This document shows positions 17,959 through 22,861 of a stretch of DNA of 55,686 nucleotides, in pieces. The stretch lies in assembly GCF_000337135.1 (NCBI RefSeq), contig NZ_AOIN01000091.1:16334-72019 (forward strand). Reading direction: 5' to 3'. Under the pieces are notes generated by a model, which saw only the letters and a list, made by a program, of their open reading frames with translations, was not told where the DNA came from and did no database searches. Numbering within the stretch: position 1 is the stretch's first letter; each line of letters opens with the position of its first letter. A program made the translations under genes and the position numbers. This DNA comes from Natrialba chahannaoensis JCM 10990 (GTDB lineage Archaea > Halobacteriota > Halobacteria > Halobacteriales > Natrialbaceae).

Positions 17959-18135
17959 ATGTTCCGTGCGATCCTCCCCGAGGGACAGATCATGTGCGAG
18001 GACTACGACCGAACAGACGACGGGCTCAGGTTGTATGACGAGTCGGGTAATTTCATCGCGTTCGTGCCGTATGCAAACCTACACGCATTGCTCAACGAGG
18101 ATGTCTACAACGAAAGTGAGCGGTCGATCATGTAG
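17959..18135 (+). CDS. Small conserved haloarchaeal protein of unknown function
   Basis: A 58-residue protein starting MFRAILPEGQIMCEDYDRTDDGLRLYDESGNFIAFVPYANLHALLNEDVY. The pattern of short strands (AILPEGQIMC, GLRLYDESGNFIAFVPY) followed by a helix looks like a small beta-sheet domain. I have seen this type of protein in haloarchaea but cannot name the family. The frame is open 15 codons upstream, but the TATA box position makes 17959 the natural leaderless start. Its end overlaps the convergent TFB gene by eight bases. Confidence 0.65.
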   Translation: MFRAILPEGQIMCEDYDRTDDGLRLYDESGNFIAFVPYANLHALLNEDVYNESERSIM

Positions 18136-19081
18136 CTGGCGACTGATCGATCGCATCGAGCTGTTCCCGGTAACGGTTTCTGACGGTTACCACGGTCGTC
18201 TGCGCTGTATCAGCGACCGCGCGCTGCGGGATGGTTTCATCACAGAGCAAGCCGGCAGCGTAGATCGCTGCCGCGGCGAAGCCGGTCGGTGACTTGCCGG
18301 AGTGGAGCCCCTTGTCGGTCGTCTGGTTGATAATCTCGACCGCTCTGGTTTCGACCTCCTTGCTCACGTCGAGTTCCGAACAGAACCGCGGCACGAACTG
18401 TCGTGGGTTCGTCGGCTCGAGATTGATATCGAGTTCGTCCGCGATGTAGCGGTAGGTGCGGCCGATCTCGCGTTGATCGACCCGCGAAACGGAGGTGACC
18501 TCCTCGAGACTGCGCGGAATGCCCTCCTTTCGGCAGGCGGTGTAGAGCGCACTGGTTGCGACGCCCTCAATGGAGCGGCCGCGAATGAGGTCCTGCTCGA
18601 GTGCCCGTCGGTAGATCACGCTGGCGGTCTCCTTGACCGGTTTTGGGACACCGAGGGCGCTGACCATGCGATCGATCTCGGAGAGTGCGTACTTGAGATT
18701 GCGTTCGCCCGCGTTCTTCGTGCGAATGCGTTCTTGCCAGACGCGCAACCGGTGGAGTTGGCCGTGCTTATCGGCCGACATCGAGTGGCCGTTTGCGTCC
18801 TTGTTGCGCCAGTCGATCGTCGTCGTCAGCCCCCGGTCGTGCATGGATTGCGTAAGGGGTGCGCCGACGCGGGAGAGTTCGTCGTGTTCCTGAGCGTTGA
18901 ACGCGCGCCACTCCGGTCCGTAGTCAATCGGGTCCTCAGTCAGAACGAGCCCGCATTCATCACAGACGCGCTCGCCGCGATCCGGATCGTGGACGATGGT
19001 ATCCGTTTCGCAGTCTGGACATAATCCAGGCTCTGACTCCTGGACCTCGCTTCTGGTGTGGTCGATGATGGACTGCGTCAT
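18128..19081 (-). CDS. tfb: Transcription initiation factor IIB
   Basis: A 317-residue archaeal general transcription factor that binds the TBP-TATA complex and the BRE and recruits RNA polymerase. The N-terminal zinc ribbon has cysteines at 21, 24, 40 and 43 (CPDC...CDEC). The B-reader/linker region follows (DYGPEWRAFNAQEHDELSRVGAPLTQSMHDRGLTT), then two cyclin-like repeats at about 120-210 and 215-310, with GRSIEGVATSALYTACRKEGIPRSLEEV and GKSPTGFAAAAIYAAGLLCDE. Haloarchaea carry several TFB paralogues with different promoter preferences, so this may be the main or an alternative one; sequence alone does not say. Confidence 0.96.
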   Translation of the reverse strand: MTQSIIDHTRSEVQESEPGLCPDCETDTIVHDPDRGERVCDECGLVLTEDPIDYGPEWRAFNAQEHDELSRVGAPLTQSMHDRGLTTTIDWRNKDANGHSMSADKHGQLHRLRVWQERIRTKNAGERNLKYALSEIDRMVSALGVPKPVKETASVIYRRALEQDLIRGRSIEGVATSALYTACRKEGIPRSLEEVTSVSRVDQREIGRTYRYIADELDINLEPTNPRQFVPRFCSELDVSKEVETRAVEIINQTTDKGLHSGKSPTGFAAAAIYAAGLLCDETIPQRAVADTAQTTVVTVRNRYREQLDAIDQSPAT

Positions 19082-19698
19082 CAGTAGTGGACGGAAGCCG
19101 TGCAGTCACTGTAAGGGGTTCACATGGTTTCGAGAGAAACCCCGACTTACTGTGGCGTGCATTTTGCCCCGGCGACGGCAGGGACGAAGATAAAGCTGTT
19201 CCGTGCATGCACCGGCGACGGTCGGGTCATGGTTGCGAAAACGAGGCGCTGCCTCGGAAAAGCGAGCAACTGAACAGGCGGAGTAACTTGTTGCCGGCCC
19301 GATACGAGAACGGCCACGTACACGGACCGACGGGTCGACGTGCGTGTTCTATTCGAGAGTGCTCCCCCACTTGCACCCCATTACGAGCACAAGTAACGCT
19401 ATTGTTCTCCGCGTAAAGCTCGCTTTCGAGACCAAACCGTCAGGAGATTTTATGTCGCTCGAGTCGAACGTTTCGTAGCAGTGCTGTGTCGCCGATCCGG
19501 ACTCCAACATCGTCTCGCGCATCGCCAGCGACAACGTAGCAACGGCCGTACGCTGTCGGTACACAAACCCAATCGCTCGATACTACGGGGACCAACACGC
19601 GCTGTTGCTCGCCGAAACGCCAAACAACAGCGACGCGAGGGTCGCCATCCGGGAAGTTGGTCCGTACCCACTTTGCAGCCGGTGCGAAACGTGACCGT
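19082..19698. other. Intergenic region upstream of TFB and the DUF7344 gene
   Basis: About 620 bases between divergent TFB and DUF7344 genes, before the likely DUF7344 promoter. Several frames are open, but the peptides are Arg-rich and resemble nothing I know. No RNA gene is recognised. Confidence 0.5.
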
Positions 19699-19777
19699 GC
19701 TTAAGAGTATCTCTGTTGGTGTACCACTTGGTGTGTCAATCGTGACTGCGAATCGCCGTTTGAGCGTACAGGGGTCG

Positions 19778-19859
19778 CTGTCGGTTCGACAGCCCGGTGG
19801 TGGTTTCACCACCCGAAGCTGGCTCCCCACAATCGGGACTGTTCGACCCGGTCGAACAG
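19778..19859 (+). promoter_or_regulatory. Three consecutive hairpins in the leader of the DUF7344 gene
   Basis: CTGTCG/CGACAG with a 3-base loop (19778-19792), GGTGGTG/CACCACC with a 4-base loop (19796-19813) and CTGTTCGACC/GGTCGAACAG around one central base (19839-19859). The last ends 16 bases before the ATG. A TATA-like TTAAGAGTAT at 19701 would put all three inside the transcript. They could be RNA structures or DNA operators. Confidence 0.55.
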
Positions 19860-19875
19860 CCGGAGGGGCACGATA

Positions 19876-20475
19876 ATGTCTTCCGTCGATACCTCGCTTC
19901 CGGACGAACTCTCTTCTTCCGTAAGCGATGCCGAGACCGATGACCAGCTGTCGAAAGACGTTATCTTTGAACTCCTGAAGAATCGCCGTCGCCGCGAGGT
20001 ACTCACGTACTTACTCGAGGCCGACGAGACTGTCACCCTCGGCGAACTCGCCGAGCAAATCGCCGCCTGGGAGAACGATACCAGCGTCAACGCGCTGAGC
20101 TCTGATCAGCGAAAGCGCGTCTACGTCGCACTCTACCAGACCCATCTCCCGAAGATGGATGATGCCGGAATCGTCGAGTACGACCAGGATCGTGGGCTGA
20201 TCTCACTGTCGGACAACGCCGACCTGCTGATGATGTATCTTGATACGGACGCACATCGACAGGATCGGTGGGACCGGTGGTATGCTGGTCTGAGTATCGG
20301 CGGCGGCGTACTCATTGCTGCGGCATTGCTCGGTGTACCCGGCCTCACTGCCCTCCCGACGCTCGCGCTCGCGGGCGGCGTCGTGCTCGCGTTCTTCGCC
20401 CTCTCGCTGGCTCACGCCGCGACGAACCGCGAGCACGAGCGGACCGTCGATGGAAAACTCTCACGCATCGAGTAG
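19876..20475 (+). CDS. DUF7344-type winged-helix membrane protein (copy 1)
   Basis: A 199-residue predicted regulator. Residues about 28-125 form a winged helix: LSKDVIFELLKNRRRREVLTYLLEADETVTLGELAEQIAAWEND, then RKRVYVALYQTHLPKMDDAGIVEYDQDRGLISLSDNADLLMMYL. Two hydrophobic segments follow (about 143-163 and 165-185), suggesting anchoring in the membrane with the DNA-binding part inside the cell. I recognise the block AAWEND...R.RVYVALYQTHLP..D..GIV.YD as the haloarchaeal DUF7344 domain, which recurs at 46450-46992 and 51916-52419. Upstream are three hairpins that might bind it. Downstream are genes for exported beta-helix proteins; any regulatory link to them is inference. Confidence 0.85.
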   Translation: MSSVDTSLPDELSSSVSDAETDDQLSKDVIFELLKNRRRREVLTYLLEADETVTLGELAEQIAAWENDTSVNALSSDQRKRVYVALYQTHLPKMDDAGIVEYDQDRGLISLSDNADLLMMYLDTDAHRQDRWDRWYAGLSIGGGVLIAAALLGVPGLTALPTLALAGGVVLAFFALSLAHAATNREHERTVDGKLSRIE

Positions 20476-20583
20476 CGACTGTTGCGCTCGATCCGAACAG
20501 TGAGTAGCGGTTCCCAGACCGTTACAACTACTGATCTGTTTCGTCAACGGGTGTTCTCAGATTCGAACAGGATCAAGAAGGAC

Positions 20584-20590
20584 TTTTATT
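20584..20590 (+). promoter_or_regulatory. TATA-like element ahead of the structured RNA candidate
   Basis: TTTTATT, preceded by a purine-rich stretch, is centred 26 bases before 20613, exactly where the first strand of the outer stem begins. Confidence 0.45.
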
Positions 20591-20612
20591 CATCCCGTTC
20601 GTAGTAAGCAAT

Positions 20613-20682
20613 GGCTCCCGGCGACCGTCATCCAGTACCGGGACAGTTCGCGTGCCAGCTTGCTGTTCCACGCGCGGGAGCC
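20613..20682 (+). ncRNA. Candidate structured RNA
   Basis: GGCTCCCG (20613-20620) pairs with CGGGAGCC (20675-20682). Directly inside it CGCGTG (20649-20654) pairs with CACGCG (20669-20674), so the two stems would stack end to end. A TATA-like element lies 26 bases upstream. It is not a tRNA, as there is no T-arm. I recognise no known RNA family. The rest of the gap 20476-20856 holds no gene I can support. Confidence 0.4.
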
Positions 20683-20856
20683 ACCTTCTCACTACGTCGA
20701 TATGTTGACACTGCCGACTCCTCACCGAGACAGAGAGACCCGTCGGTTGGATGCGTCGACTGATCGTACTCGAGAGCGGCGAGTCAGAGACGCCGCGGTT
20801 GTCATCGTCTAAAAGCGCAACACGCAAACCGCAATCGGCGCTACTGGAACGACTGC

Positions 20857-22644
20857 CTACTGGTTCCGTGCGTTGTACTGCACGTCGACTGCCGCCGGTC
20901 CACACAGTGTGAAGTCGTCGATTGTCCCCTCGAACCAGTATGCGTCGAGTTCGTTGTCGACAACACCACGGACGTAGCGGTCGTCGATGATATCCTCGTC
21001 GTCGATCGTTGCCGAGCGATAGTCCGACTTGACGACCGTTCCGTCGATACGGAACGAGTACGTACTCGGCTCGTCACTGTCACCCCCGTCGATGACGAGC
21101 GCGTGGGGAAGCAGTTCGGTTTCCCCGTACTCGGATGGATCGATCTCCTCGCCGTCGAGGAAAACCGCCGCCTCGCCGTCGATAAACGTGACATCGGCGA
21201 GTGCACCCGAGAAGCGGAACGTCTGCGTGGCGTTCGTCACCGAGCTCTGGACCGTCGAGCCGGAAACCGTCGTCACTTCATCATCCGGATTCTCGTCTGC
21301 GTCGAGTTCAATCGTGCCGTCGACCGTGATCTCGTAACTTGTTGGTGCGCCACGGCCCTCGATCTCGAGTACGTGTGGGAGGTCCTCACCGTAGTCAGAC
21401 GGATCGACTTCCTCACCGTTGACGAAGACCGTTCCCGGTCCGTCGACGGTCAGCGTGAGCAGGTCGCCGTCGAACCGGAAAGCGTCCTTCCAATCGGCGA
21501 CGACGCCGTATGCCACGCCGTCGTCGATACCCGCAGCCGCGTCGATCGTCGCACCCTCTGCCGTCGATGGCTCGACATCGCCCTCGGCTTCGAACTCGTA
21601 ACGAGTCACGTCCGACTCATCACCCTCGACGAGCAGGAGGTTCTCGAGTGCGGGTCCGTCGTCGTCCTCGTCTGCGTCGTTGCCGTTCACACTATCTCCC
21701 GTCTCGTTCGTCTCGCCCGACGCGGCTTCGATGGCCGACGTTGGGGTTCCTTCGGGGACCGAGAGCTCGGGGGAACTCGAGACGTTCGATCGATTGAGGC
21801 CACCGCCCTGAACGCTACCGCTGATTGCGCCGCCGGTCATCTGGGCAGTTGCGTTACCACGCAGGATGATCGCGTGTGGGTAGCCCCCGCTTGCGAAGTG
21901 TGAATCCTCGATCGAGACGGTGCTGCCGGGCCAGACCCAGACTGGCCGGCCGCTATCTTCAGTGTAGCCGCCCCAGCCGGGACCGTAGTCGGTGTTGTCG
22001 TTGTACGCGACCGAGTCGACGATGGCGTCGTTGCCGCCGGCAACGCGGTAGGTGCTGACGCCGTTGTTCTTGCCGTAACAGTGTTCGAATCGCGCGGAGC
22101 CGCCCGAAGCGGTGTTTGAACAGTAGAAGCCGTTGTTCGGCCACCCCTGAACGTTGCAGTGACGGAATGTGACGTCACAGGAGGCGTCGCGGTGGTAGAA
22201 CACCGCGCCGGGTCCGTGGACGAAACTCTCGCCTTCCTTGGTCGATCCGTCGCCGAGGTAGACGTTCTCGATCAGGACATCCCCACTCGGTGCCGTGATC
22301 GAGATCATGAACCCGTCCCCACGGTGGAGTCCCTCGAATCCGACGTTCCGGATCACGGAGTTGCCACCCTCGACGAGGAGGACGACGCTGTTGCCGTTGG
22401 TCAGGTCGATTAGTTTGTTCTCGAAGGTTTCACCCTGCCCGATGCGGATGACCTGTCCGTTGGCGGTGATCGTCTCGTAGTCGTCACTGTTTGCCGCGCC
22501 GGCGGTTGCGCCGAACGCGGTCGCTGCAGTCGTTGCCCCGGCCAGTTTCATGTACGAACGACGGTCGAGTAATCCACTATTACTCTCTGTCGTCGCGTCG
22601 TTCCCGGATGAACCGTCACCCGGTACCGAACGTTCACGTGCCAT
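20857..22644 (-). CDS. Tat-exported right-handed beta-helix protein with tandem C-terminal modules
   Basis: A 595-residue secreted protein. The signal region DRRSYMKLAGATTAATAFGATAGAANS carries twin Arg at 28-29, indicating Tat export of a folded protein. Residues about 55-290 look like a parallel beta-helix with repeated strands (VIRNVGFEGL, VLIENVYLGDGS, FRHCNVQGWPNNGFYCSN, VSIEDSHF). After an acidic linker, residues about 340-595 hold two to three copies of a roughly 95-residue module with the repeated core VDGTV...FRF.G.L and VFVNGEEVDPSDYGE...HVLEIEG. Beta-helix proteins often bind or cleave polysaccharide, but I see no catalytic signature. A paralogue of the first half lies immediately upstream. 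The upstream region is rich in inverted repeats. Confidence 0.8.
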   Translation of the reverse strand: MARERSVPGDGSSGNDATTESNSGLLDRRSYMKLAGATTAATAFGATAGAANSDDYETITANGQVIRIGQGETFENKLIDLTNGNSVVLLVEGGNSVIRNVGFEGLHRGDGFMISITAPSGDVLIENVYLGDGSTKEGESFVHGPGAVFYHRDASCDVTFRHCNVQGWPNNGFYCSNTASGGSARFEHCYGKNNGVSTYRVAGGNDAIVDSVAYNDNTDYGPGWGGYTEDSGRPVWVWPGSTVSIEDSHFASGGYPHAIILRGNATAQMTGGAISGSVQGGGLNRSNVSSSPELSVPEGTPTSAIEAASGETNETGDSVNGNDADEDDDGPALENLLLVEGDESDVTRYEFEAEGDVEPSTAEGATIDAAAGIDDGVAYGVVADWKDAFRFDGDLLTLTVDGPGTVFVNGEEVDPSDYGEDLPHVLEIEGRGAPTSYEITVDGTIELDADENPDDEVTTVSGSTVQSSVTNATQTFRFSGALADVTFIDGEAAVFLDGEEIDPSEYGETELLPHALVIDGGDSDEPSTYSFRIDGTVVKSDYRSATIDDEDIIDDRYVRGVVDNELDAYWFEGTIDDFTLCGPAAVDVQYNARNQ

Positions 22645-22650
22645 GTACTA

Positions 22651-22861
22651 CGGGTAATACAGAACTACCGCAATAAACTTTCCCTTTCACCGAACCTAAA
22701 ATTTACAGACAGTAGCTATGGTCAGATAGTTCGTTCACAAAACTATCTATGTTTTTAACCGGAAGGAGCTCATATACAGCCATCTCTGGCAGGTAATAGC
22801 TTATTACCCAAAATCACCGTAAATACCGCAGCAAAAATTGACGGGTAAAACAAAATTACCC
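22651..22861. promoter_or_regulatory. Cluster of inverted repeats upstream of the beta-helix gene
   Basis: In an AT-rich stretch lie AGATAGTT/AACTATCT with a 9-base spacer (22724-22748), GGTAATA/TATTACC with a 3-base spacer (22792-22808) and GGGTAA/TTACCC with a 7-base spacer (22843-22861). A further GGGTAATA occurs at 22652, next to the start codon. They look like binding sites of one or more regulators. Confidence 0.5.

Follow-up and report, generated by a model that had tools for sequence, protein, structure and literature searches.

A structured small RNA of the Natrialbaceae with covarying two-block complementarity to the start of a beta-helix-like gene

Comparison among relatives of Natrialba chahannaoensis shows that a short intergenic segment of the window (the whole 55,686-nucleotide stretch of DNA analysed here) corresponds to a predicted structured RNA read from the + strand, which carries two blocks of complementarity that covary with the start of the nearby gene BH1. 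Positions 20612–20683 quite probably encode a trans-acting antisense small RNA (sRNA) that would cover the start codon of BH1-type mRNAs and repress the proteins they encode; expression, pairing in the cell and repression are what we infer from the comparative evidence set out below.

A conserved RNA gene in the Natrialbaceae

The element is a small-RNA gene that is conserved, present in a single copy and served by a promoter of its own; it and its surroundings lie in the window as follows:

19876–20475 (+): DUF7344 gene (Pfam DUF7344), a co-inherited neighbour that adjoins the RNA in 72 of 76 loci
20577–20590 (+): promoter of the RNA gene, GAAGGACTTTTATT, with a TATA-like box at 20584–20590; conserved across 78 loci
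20612–20683 (+): small RNA gene body, from DNA search, alignment and covariance model; 56–77 nt in relatives
20684–20695 (+): tail with some T, a weak candidate for a terminator (mean of 4.4 T per 12 nt over 78 loci)

DNA searches with positions 20480–20860 and further stretches returned 79 places, the window's own counted, of which 78 were kept and one (L086, genome G096), a chance match in coding-like sequence, was left out. The 78 loci share the consensus promoter GAAGGACTTTTATTCA, followed after some 20 nt that include CGTA by GGCTCCCG...TTCGCGTGCCAGC...CGGGAGCC, with one loop T missing in 6 of them; the T-run begins 29–30 nt 5′ of the stem in 74 of the 78. Applied to a draw of 392 genomes of the order, a covariance model (R1) matched 86 of the 96 Natrialbaceae genomes (family f1), with one copy each, and outside this family the same draw gave a single 29-nt match (E = 0.0084) that we read as chance, as we did weak matches of the model in G009, G015 and G377. 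A pattern scan of named genomes yielded 48 stretches, 47 of which we take to be Natrialbaceae MAGs or genera placed in Natrialbaceae; the remaining one, from a Planctomycetaceae MAG (L132), was read as chance. The exact element pattern was absent from viral contigs and present on 11 plasmid records of 131–402 kb, which carry Natrialbaceae taxonomy. In Haloterrigena, Natronorubrum and others, the locus comprising TFB, DUF7344 and the RNA (L251–L254) is carried by a plasmid or second replicon, and glycosyltransferase or flippase genes of the surface-polysaccharide type stand near the element in three of the four plasmid records inspected.

Rfam 15 covariance models gave no match at the gathering score in the window and none at E ≤ 10 in 20500–20800, and ARAGORN found no tRNA or tmRNA genes. 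Literature searches, which covered open papers without their supplements, returned no description of the RNA, which may be among the halite sRNAs listed for PMC7002113; papers containing an 11- to 13-nt piece of its sequence were unrelated by title.

Where DUF7344 adjoins the RNA it lies upstream on the same strand, the other four loci having an ortholog 3–7 kb away, and flanks that are long enough show a TFB gene still further upstream. Among 42 f1 genomes, 28 have both the RNA and a DUF7344 ortholog, 2 have DUF7344 only, 12 have neither and none has the RNA only (Fisher p = 8e-9), in a set that includes 26 genomes from a non-random draw and in which physical linkage alone could give the co-occurrence. 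Our literature search found no papers on DUF7344, and a role for it in the same control would be a guess.

Two other explanations of the locus were tried and rejected. A cis-regulatory leader or riboswitch would sit before a constant same-strand downstream gene, which is absent from the 76 loci; a BH1 match was found downstream on the other strand in 50 of them and on the RNA's own strand in 4 (2 of these upstream), and the short flank of the other 22 had none. A leaderless small protein, the 50-aa ORF from 20611, has its ATG in 13 of 78 loci and changes length through indels, bearing out by comparison the statement of an earlier sequence-only reading that nothing here encodes protein.

Fold of the RNA

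RNAalifold, applied to 45 sequences, gave an outer stem (P1) and an inner stem (P2); alignment A1 omits 33 of the 78 loci, namely 12 with long 3′ linkers misaligned by MAFFT, 2 degenerate ones (L072 and L085) and 19 near-duplicates. The strands of both stems are placed by the alignment and the consensus fold, and the parts of the RNA in the window are:

20612–20620 (+): P1 5′ strand
20621–20639 (+): linker; antisense block 2 is 20624–20640, complementary to nt 17–33 of the BH1 mRNA
20640–20646 (+): P2 5′ strand
20647–20662 (+): P2 loop; antisense block 1 is 20646–20657, with its complement at BH1 starts
20663–20669 (+): P2 3′ strand
20675–20683 (+): P1 3′ strand

The conserved inner stem reads GGRACAG/CUGUUCC and displays the loop UUCGCGUGCCAGC. 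Together P1 and P2 pair in 97.3% of cells, with double changes at four pairs and a covariation score reached by 3 of 500 shuffles; support from covariation is only moderate because six of the nine P1 pairs (in the nine-pair drawing) never vary among 44 distinct sequences and hence cannot covary. Over the helix pairs of 78 loci, the outermost pair excluded, G-U outnumbers A-C by 87 to 2, and transcription of the + strand therefore fits. An 81-nt fold (z = −2.9) was equalled in stability by none of 200 shuffles and the 72-nt core (z = −2.4) by 4 of 200; over a 124-nt stretch the fold was not special (z = −0.7). TCGCGTGCCAGC occurs in 78 of 78 hand-aligned loci, which it had also served as an anchor to locate, and GUGCCAGC may resemble the 530 loop of 16S rRNA.

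The sequence-only reading had proposed a promoter-linked structured RNA with an outer stem, an inner hairpin stacked on it and an alternative third arm. All the motifs it named are in the sequence: TTTTATT at 20584–20590, the outer stem GGCTCCCG/CGGGAGCC at 20613–20620 and 20675–20682, CGCGTG/CACGCG at 20649–20654 and 20669–20674, abutting the outer stem, and CCCGG/CCGGG at 20618–20622 and 20638–20642. In homologous regions, whose covariation analysis it had named as a check, the outer stem holds and the other two proposed helices fail. The inner CGCGTG/CACGCG helix pairs in 64% of cells with no double change, two of its six pairs being unpaired in 32 and 31 of 44 sequences (the same helix shifted by two columns pairs in 90% of cells, with double changes still absent), and the third arm was not above shuffles, its outer pair being unpaired in 41 of 44. 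A promoter-linked structured RNA as such is well supported by family-wide conservation, fixed promoter spacing, the G-U excess and moderate covariation; the two additional helices of that proposal are not supported.

Complementarity to the start of BH1

We attribute the conservation of the loop and linker to their complementarity to the start of the neighbouring BH1, which the earlier reading had not noticed. The features concerned are:

20857–22644 (−): BH1, exported beta-helix-like protein and main predicted target (weak Pfam Beta_helix match below the cut-off)
22612–22643 (−): predicted target site on the BH1 mRNA, nt 2–33 from the start codon, by complementarity to loop and linker
22672–22677 (−): TATA-like box of BH1, 33 nt 5′ of the ATG

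One relative of BH1 is annotated as a right-handed parallel beta-helix protein and the others as hypothetical. TATA-like boxes begin 29–33 nt 5′ of the BH1 ATG in 61 of 64 relatives; under the usual archaeal promoter spacing a box at that distance predicts a leader of a few nucleotides at most and hence an almost leaderless BH1 mRNA. In the window this mRNA starts AUGGCACGUGAACGUUCGGUACCGGGUGACGGU, and the RNA matches its nt 2–13 in 12 pairs, one of them U-G, and its nt 17–33 over 17 positions with one mismatch and one G-U. The mRNA bases between the two blocks lie opposite the P2 5′ strand, where it is the pairing within P2 that is preserved.

Nearly all BH1 starts with the loop complement read ATGGCACG(C/T)GA, and exact 10-mers of the loop complement off the RNA numbered 57 at named loci versus 12 for a reversed control. 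Relative to the RNA, tagged starts lie downstream on the − strand (60), downstream on the + strand (8) or upstream on the + strand (3). They were present in 65 of the 78 fetched loci, 64 with a long frame; for the 13 loci without one, BH1 was sought elsewhere in 5, and a longer stretch of one more (G040, L254) showed it. In five genomes (G011, G020, G031, G038 and G057) a tagged BH1 relative is separated from the RNA by distances that range from about 8 kb to over 500 kb. The RNA gene, which in the window stands some 2 kb away from BH1, has as in trans-encoded antisense sRNAs its own place away from the target site, and the complementarity accompanies BH1 whichever way that gene is oriented and over separations ranging from 2 kb to hundreds of kb.

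Scans with the full loop complement GCTGGCACGCGA (16 extra sites versus 22 in the control, 10 genomes) and with loop 8-mers in the window (27, the RNA's own 7 counted, versus 20 in the reversed control) missed the BH1 site, since an A in the mRNA stands at the position of a C in the loop complement and codon 3 in the window is CGT. Exact 12-mer complements of BH1 starts occur outside the RNA and tagged starts at 9 places in 8 loci, and block 1 is absent from some BH1 copies, such as the second copy in L128/L283.

Duplex energies over 64 genomes set BH1 apart: the median was −55.3 at BH1 starts (the best start where there were several), −30.8 at starts of the BH2 paralogs (n = 44) and −26.9 at other ORF starts (n = 624), with BH1 the best-pairing start of its own locus in 61 of 64 genomes. 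An exact complement of at least 10 nt lies inside the RNA for 60 of 64 BH1 starts and for 0 of 44 BH2 starts. Only 37 of 3840 synonymous recodings of the BH1 start were equally stable. Codon 2 is GCA in 71 of 71 BH1 starts versus 423 of 3826 (11%) Ala codons in gene bodies, and codon 3 is CGC or CGT in 71 of 71 versus 999 of 1925 Arg codons; starts for the energy and codon tests were picked by ATGGCNCGNGA, which leaves only third positions free and excludes BH1 copies with other starts. Conservation of BH1 is 0.97 over nt 4–12, partly set by this selection, 0.85 over nt 17–26 and 0.55 from nt 27 onward. Less favourably to this target, an energy scan of the 12-kb loci put a tagged start as the top window of all in 42 of 78, and ungapped scoring did so in only 26 of 78.

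As in trans-encoded antisense sRNAs, the complementarity is conserved through covariation. Own RNA–BH1 pairs average −53.6 versus −50.1 for permuted pairs, a value as low being reached in 0 of 5000 permutations (first start used); when each of 22 genera was represented by a single genome, p was ≤ 0.0005 in 20 draws (best own start used, a slight bias). Joint changes include RNA CCUCGUCCGG with mRNA CGGACGAGG in G032, where most loci have CCAGUACCGG with CGGUACUGG; RNA AUUCAGUAC with mRNA GUACUGAAU in G058; and RNA CCAAUACCG with mRNA CGGUAUUGG in G082. One loop U is lost in six loci of one genus, and there codon 4 is GAC in 6 of 6 versus 5 of 58 elsewhere. Poor own pairs exist as well, L300 and L306 ranking 60 and 61 of 64.

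Genomes G064 and G073 keep DUF7344 and BH1 and lack the RNA, and their BH1 starts are damaged (ATGACACGCGAC and ATGCCCCACGAACGG), an argument from loss that comprises two genomes. In G064, 3′ of DUF7344 (L198), a promoter-like remnant GGAAAGGACTGTTACC...CGTACG stands where the RNA body is missing, which suggests recent loss of the RNA. Model search at E ≤ 1 found no diverged RNA in G052, G064, G067 or G073, and the loop with two mismatches was no commoner than the control in three of these and stood at 40 versus 39 in G064.

Other candidate targets within the locus were rejected. Compared by eye, DUF7344 leaders did not conserve the loop-pairing sequence present in the window (AAGCUGGC), and the region upstream of TFB looked like a promoter with an inverted repeat instead. 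The DUF7344 leader itself is about 130 nt long (window 19700–19875), its first part, TTGGTGTACAACTTGGTGTGTCAATCGTGA in relatives, being strongly conserved, and the window adds strong hairpins that relatives lack. Upstream of TFB (18128–19081, −), positions 19126–19141 hold a GGTTTC-N4-GAAACC inverted repeat with conserved flanks CATGTGAACCCCTTACAGTG, kept in most of 44 relatives and perhaps a regulator site in the TFB promoter.

The start tag also occurs beyond BH1. Its pattern ATGGCACGYGA was found 63 times versus 24 for the control in 12 genomes with the RNA, but was somewhat above control, at 40 versus 29, in 12 RNA-less genomes too; among 20 chosen sites in seven genomes, 6 belong to a family of 109-aa proteins, 6 to Tat-type exported or BH1-like proteins and 8 to short or internal frames. 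The 109-aa family, for which we found no fitting Pfam or NCBIfam family, occurs in 12 of 12 searched genomes with the RNA and 4 of 12 without, and 11 of the former carry the tag on a copy. Its pairing, compared with 300 other starts, was matched or beaten by 0–5 of them in eight genomes with the RNA, by 11–23 in three and by 58 in one; in RNA-less genomes the tagged copies are 1 of 1 (G073), 1 of 2 (G052), 1 of 3 (G067) and 0 of 2 (G064). This uncharacterised family (L393:272–598, G000 C46) resembles the C-terminal repeats of BH1 and has the same start tag. BH2 paralogs begin ATGGCGCAG; BH2 itself starts at window 24382 (−), and BH2-type paralogs share a conserved start, ATGGCGCAGAAYCCCCGTACGTCC, and an upstream GTTAC motif as in BH1. 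A second RNA opposite BH2 starts was not found in the 12-kb loci (0 of 44 inside the RNA; two isolated 12-mers elsewhere).

Tentatively, then, one sRNA may have as its regulon a set of nearly leaderless mRNAs, each addressed by a nucleotide tag in its first eleven or so codons, a tag spanning otherwise different families (BH1, the 109-aa family and other Tat-type exported proteins), with the RNA dictating an N-terminal MAR[E/D] across an archaeal family; the regulon is uncertain because three RNA-less genomes (G073, G052 and G067) retain a tagged copy of the second family.

Predicted action and known systems

In the antisense mechanism we favour, P1 would close the RNA, with the P2 loop displaying one antisense block and the linker 5′ of P2 the second. 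Both blocks together would cover the start codon and roughly eleven codons at the beginning of the BH1 mRNA, itself almost leaderless, and probably do likewise on a few other mRNAs whose 5′ ends carry the tag (AUGGCACGYGA...CGGUAC). Such a duplex, beginning at the second base of the start codon, would keep ribosomes off and lower the synthesis of these exported proteins.

The identical pairing evidence applies if the RNA instead activates or stabilizes BH1-type mRNAs, for instance by protecting their 5′ ends against nucleases, and a review describes the archaeal sRNA154 as stabilizing several mRNAs (PMC5867862); we consider this unlikely, as the blocks cover the start codon itself and should hinder initiation on a nearly leaderless mRNA. 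Considerably less probable still, the start tag could owe its conservation to the needs of the protein or of initiation (MAR[E/D]), with the RNA gene as an inverted copy of it that DNA exchange keeps similar. The tag does persist in some genes of the RNA-less G052, G067 and G073, and gene conversion could also yield joint changes, but constraint reaches third codon positions, promoter and stems of the RNA are conserved in their own right, the P2 5′ strand is kept for P2 rather than for the mRNA, and BH2 paralogs begin ATGGCGCAG. Least credible is an RNA acting mainly by protein binding, perhaps to DUF7344, with BH1 complementarity secondary: the co-occurrence in 42 genomes (28/2/12/0) and the nearly invariant P1 5′ strand would accord with it, but physical linkage alone can explain the former and the covariation with BH1 would go unexplained.

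Set among known systems, the predicted antisense RNA shares with the bacterial MicC and RybB pairing in the early coding region, by which they repress; unlike it they are bacterial, Hfq-dependent and act on leadered mRNAs. The nearest mechanism found is that of Methanosarcina mazei sRNA162 as described in PMC3510493, likewise an archaeal trans-acting sRNA whose unpaired region masks a translation initiation region and which uses two domains for its targets. Compared by description, sRNA162 masks a predicted ribosome-binding site on a bicistronic mRNA, whereas the RNA here would place two blocks over the start codon and the codons just after it, on an mRNA with almost no leader, and shows family-wide covariation. 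According to PMC5867862, M. mazei sRNA154 is also an intergenic sRNA of archaea that is conserved, has two loops and serves several targets, but it is nitrogen-regulated, is said to stabilize some targets and block translation of another, and belongs to another lineage with other targets. Haloferax volcanii sRNA132 and s479 are likewise intergenic haloarchaeal sRNAs with proposed mRNA targets, set apart by the place of those targets in phosphate and zinc transport. We therefore file the RNA as a variant of trans-acting antisense sRNA, new as far as the Rfam and literature searches reach.

According to the review PMC5867862, 72% of haloarchaeal transcripts are leaderless, and masking of a ribosome-binding site therefore cannot be their rule. 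The RNA described here would offer a concrete mode for sRNA control of nearly leaderless messages, two antisense blocks laid over the start codon and first codons, and, if this holds, it would exemplify constraint on the N-termini of proteins by a regulatory RNA.
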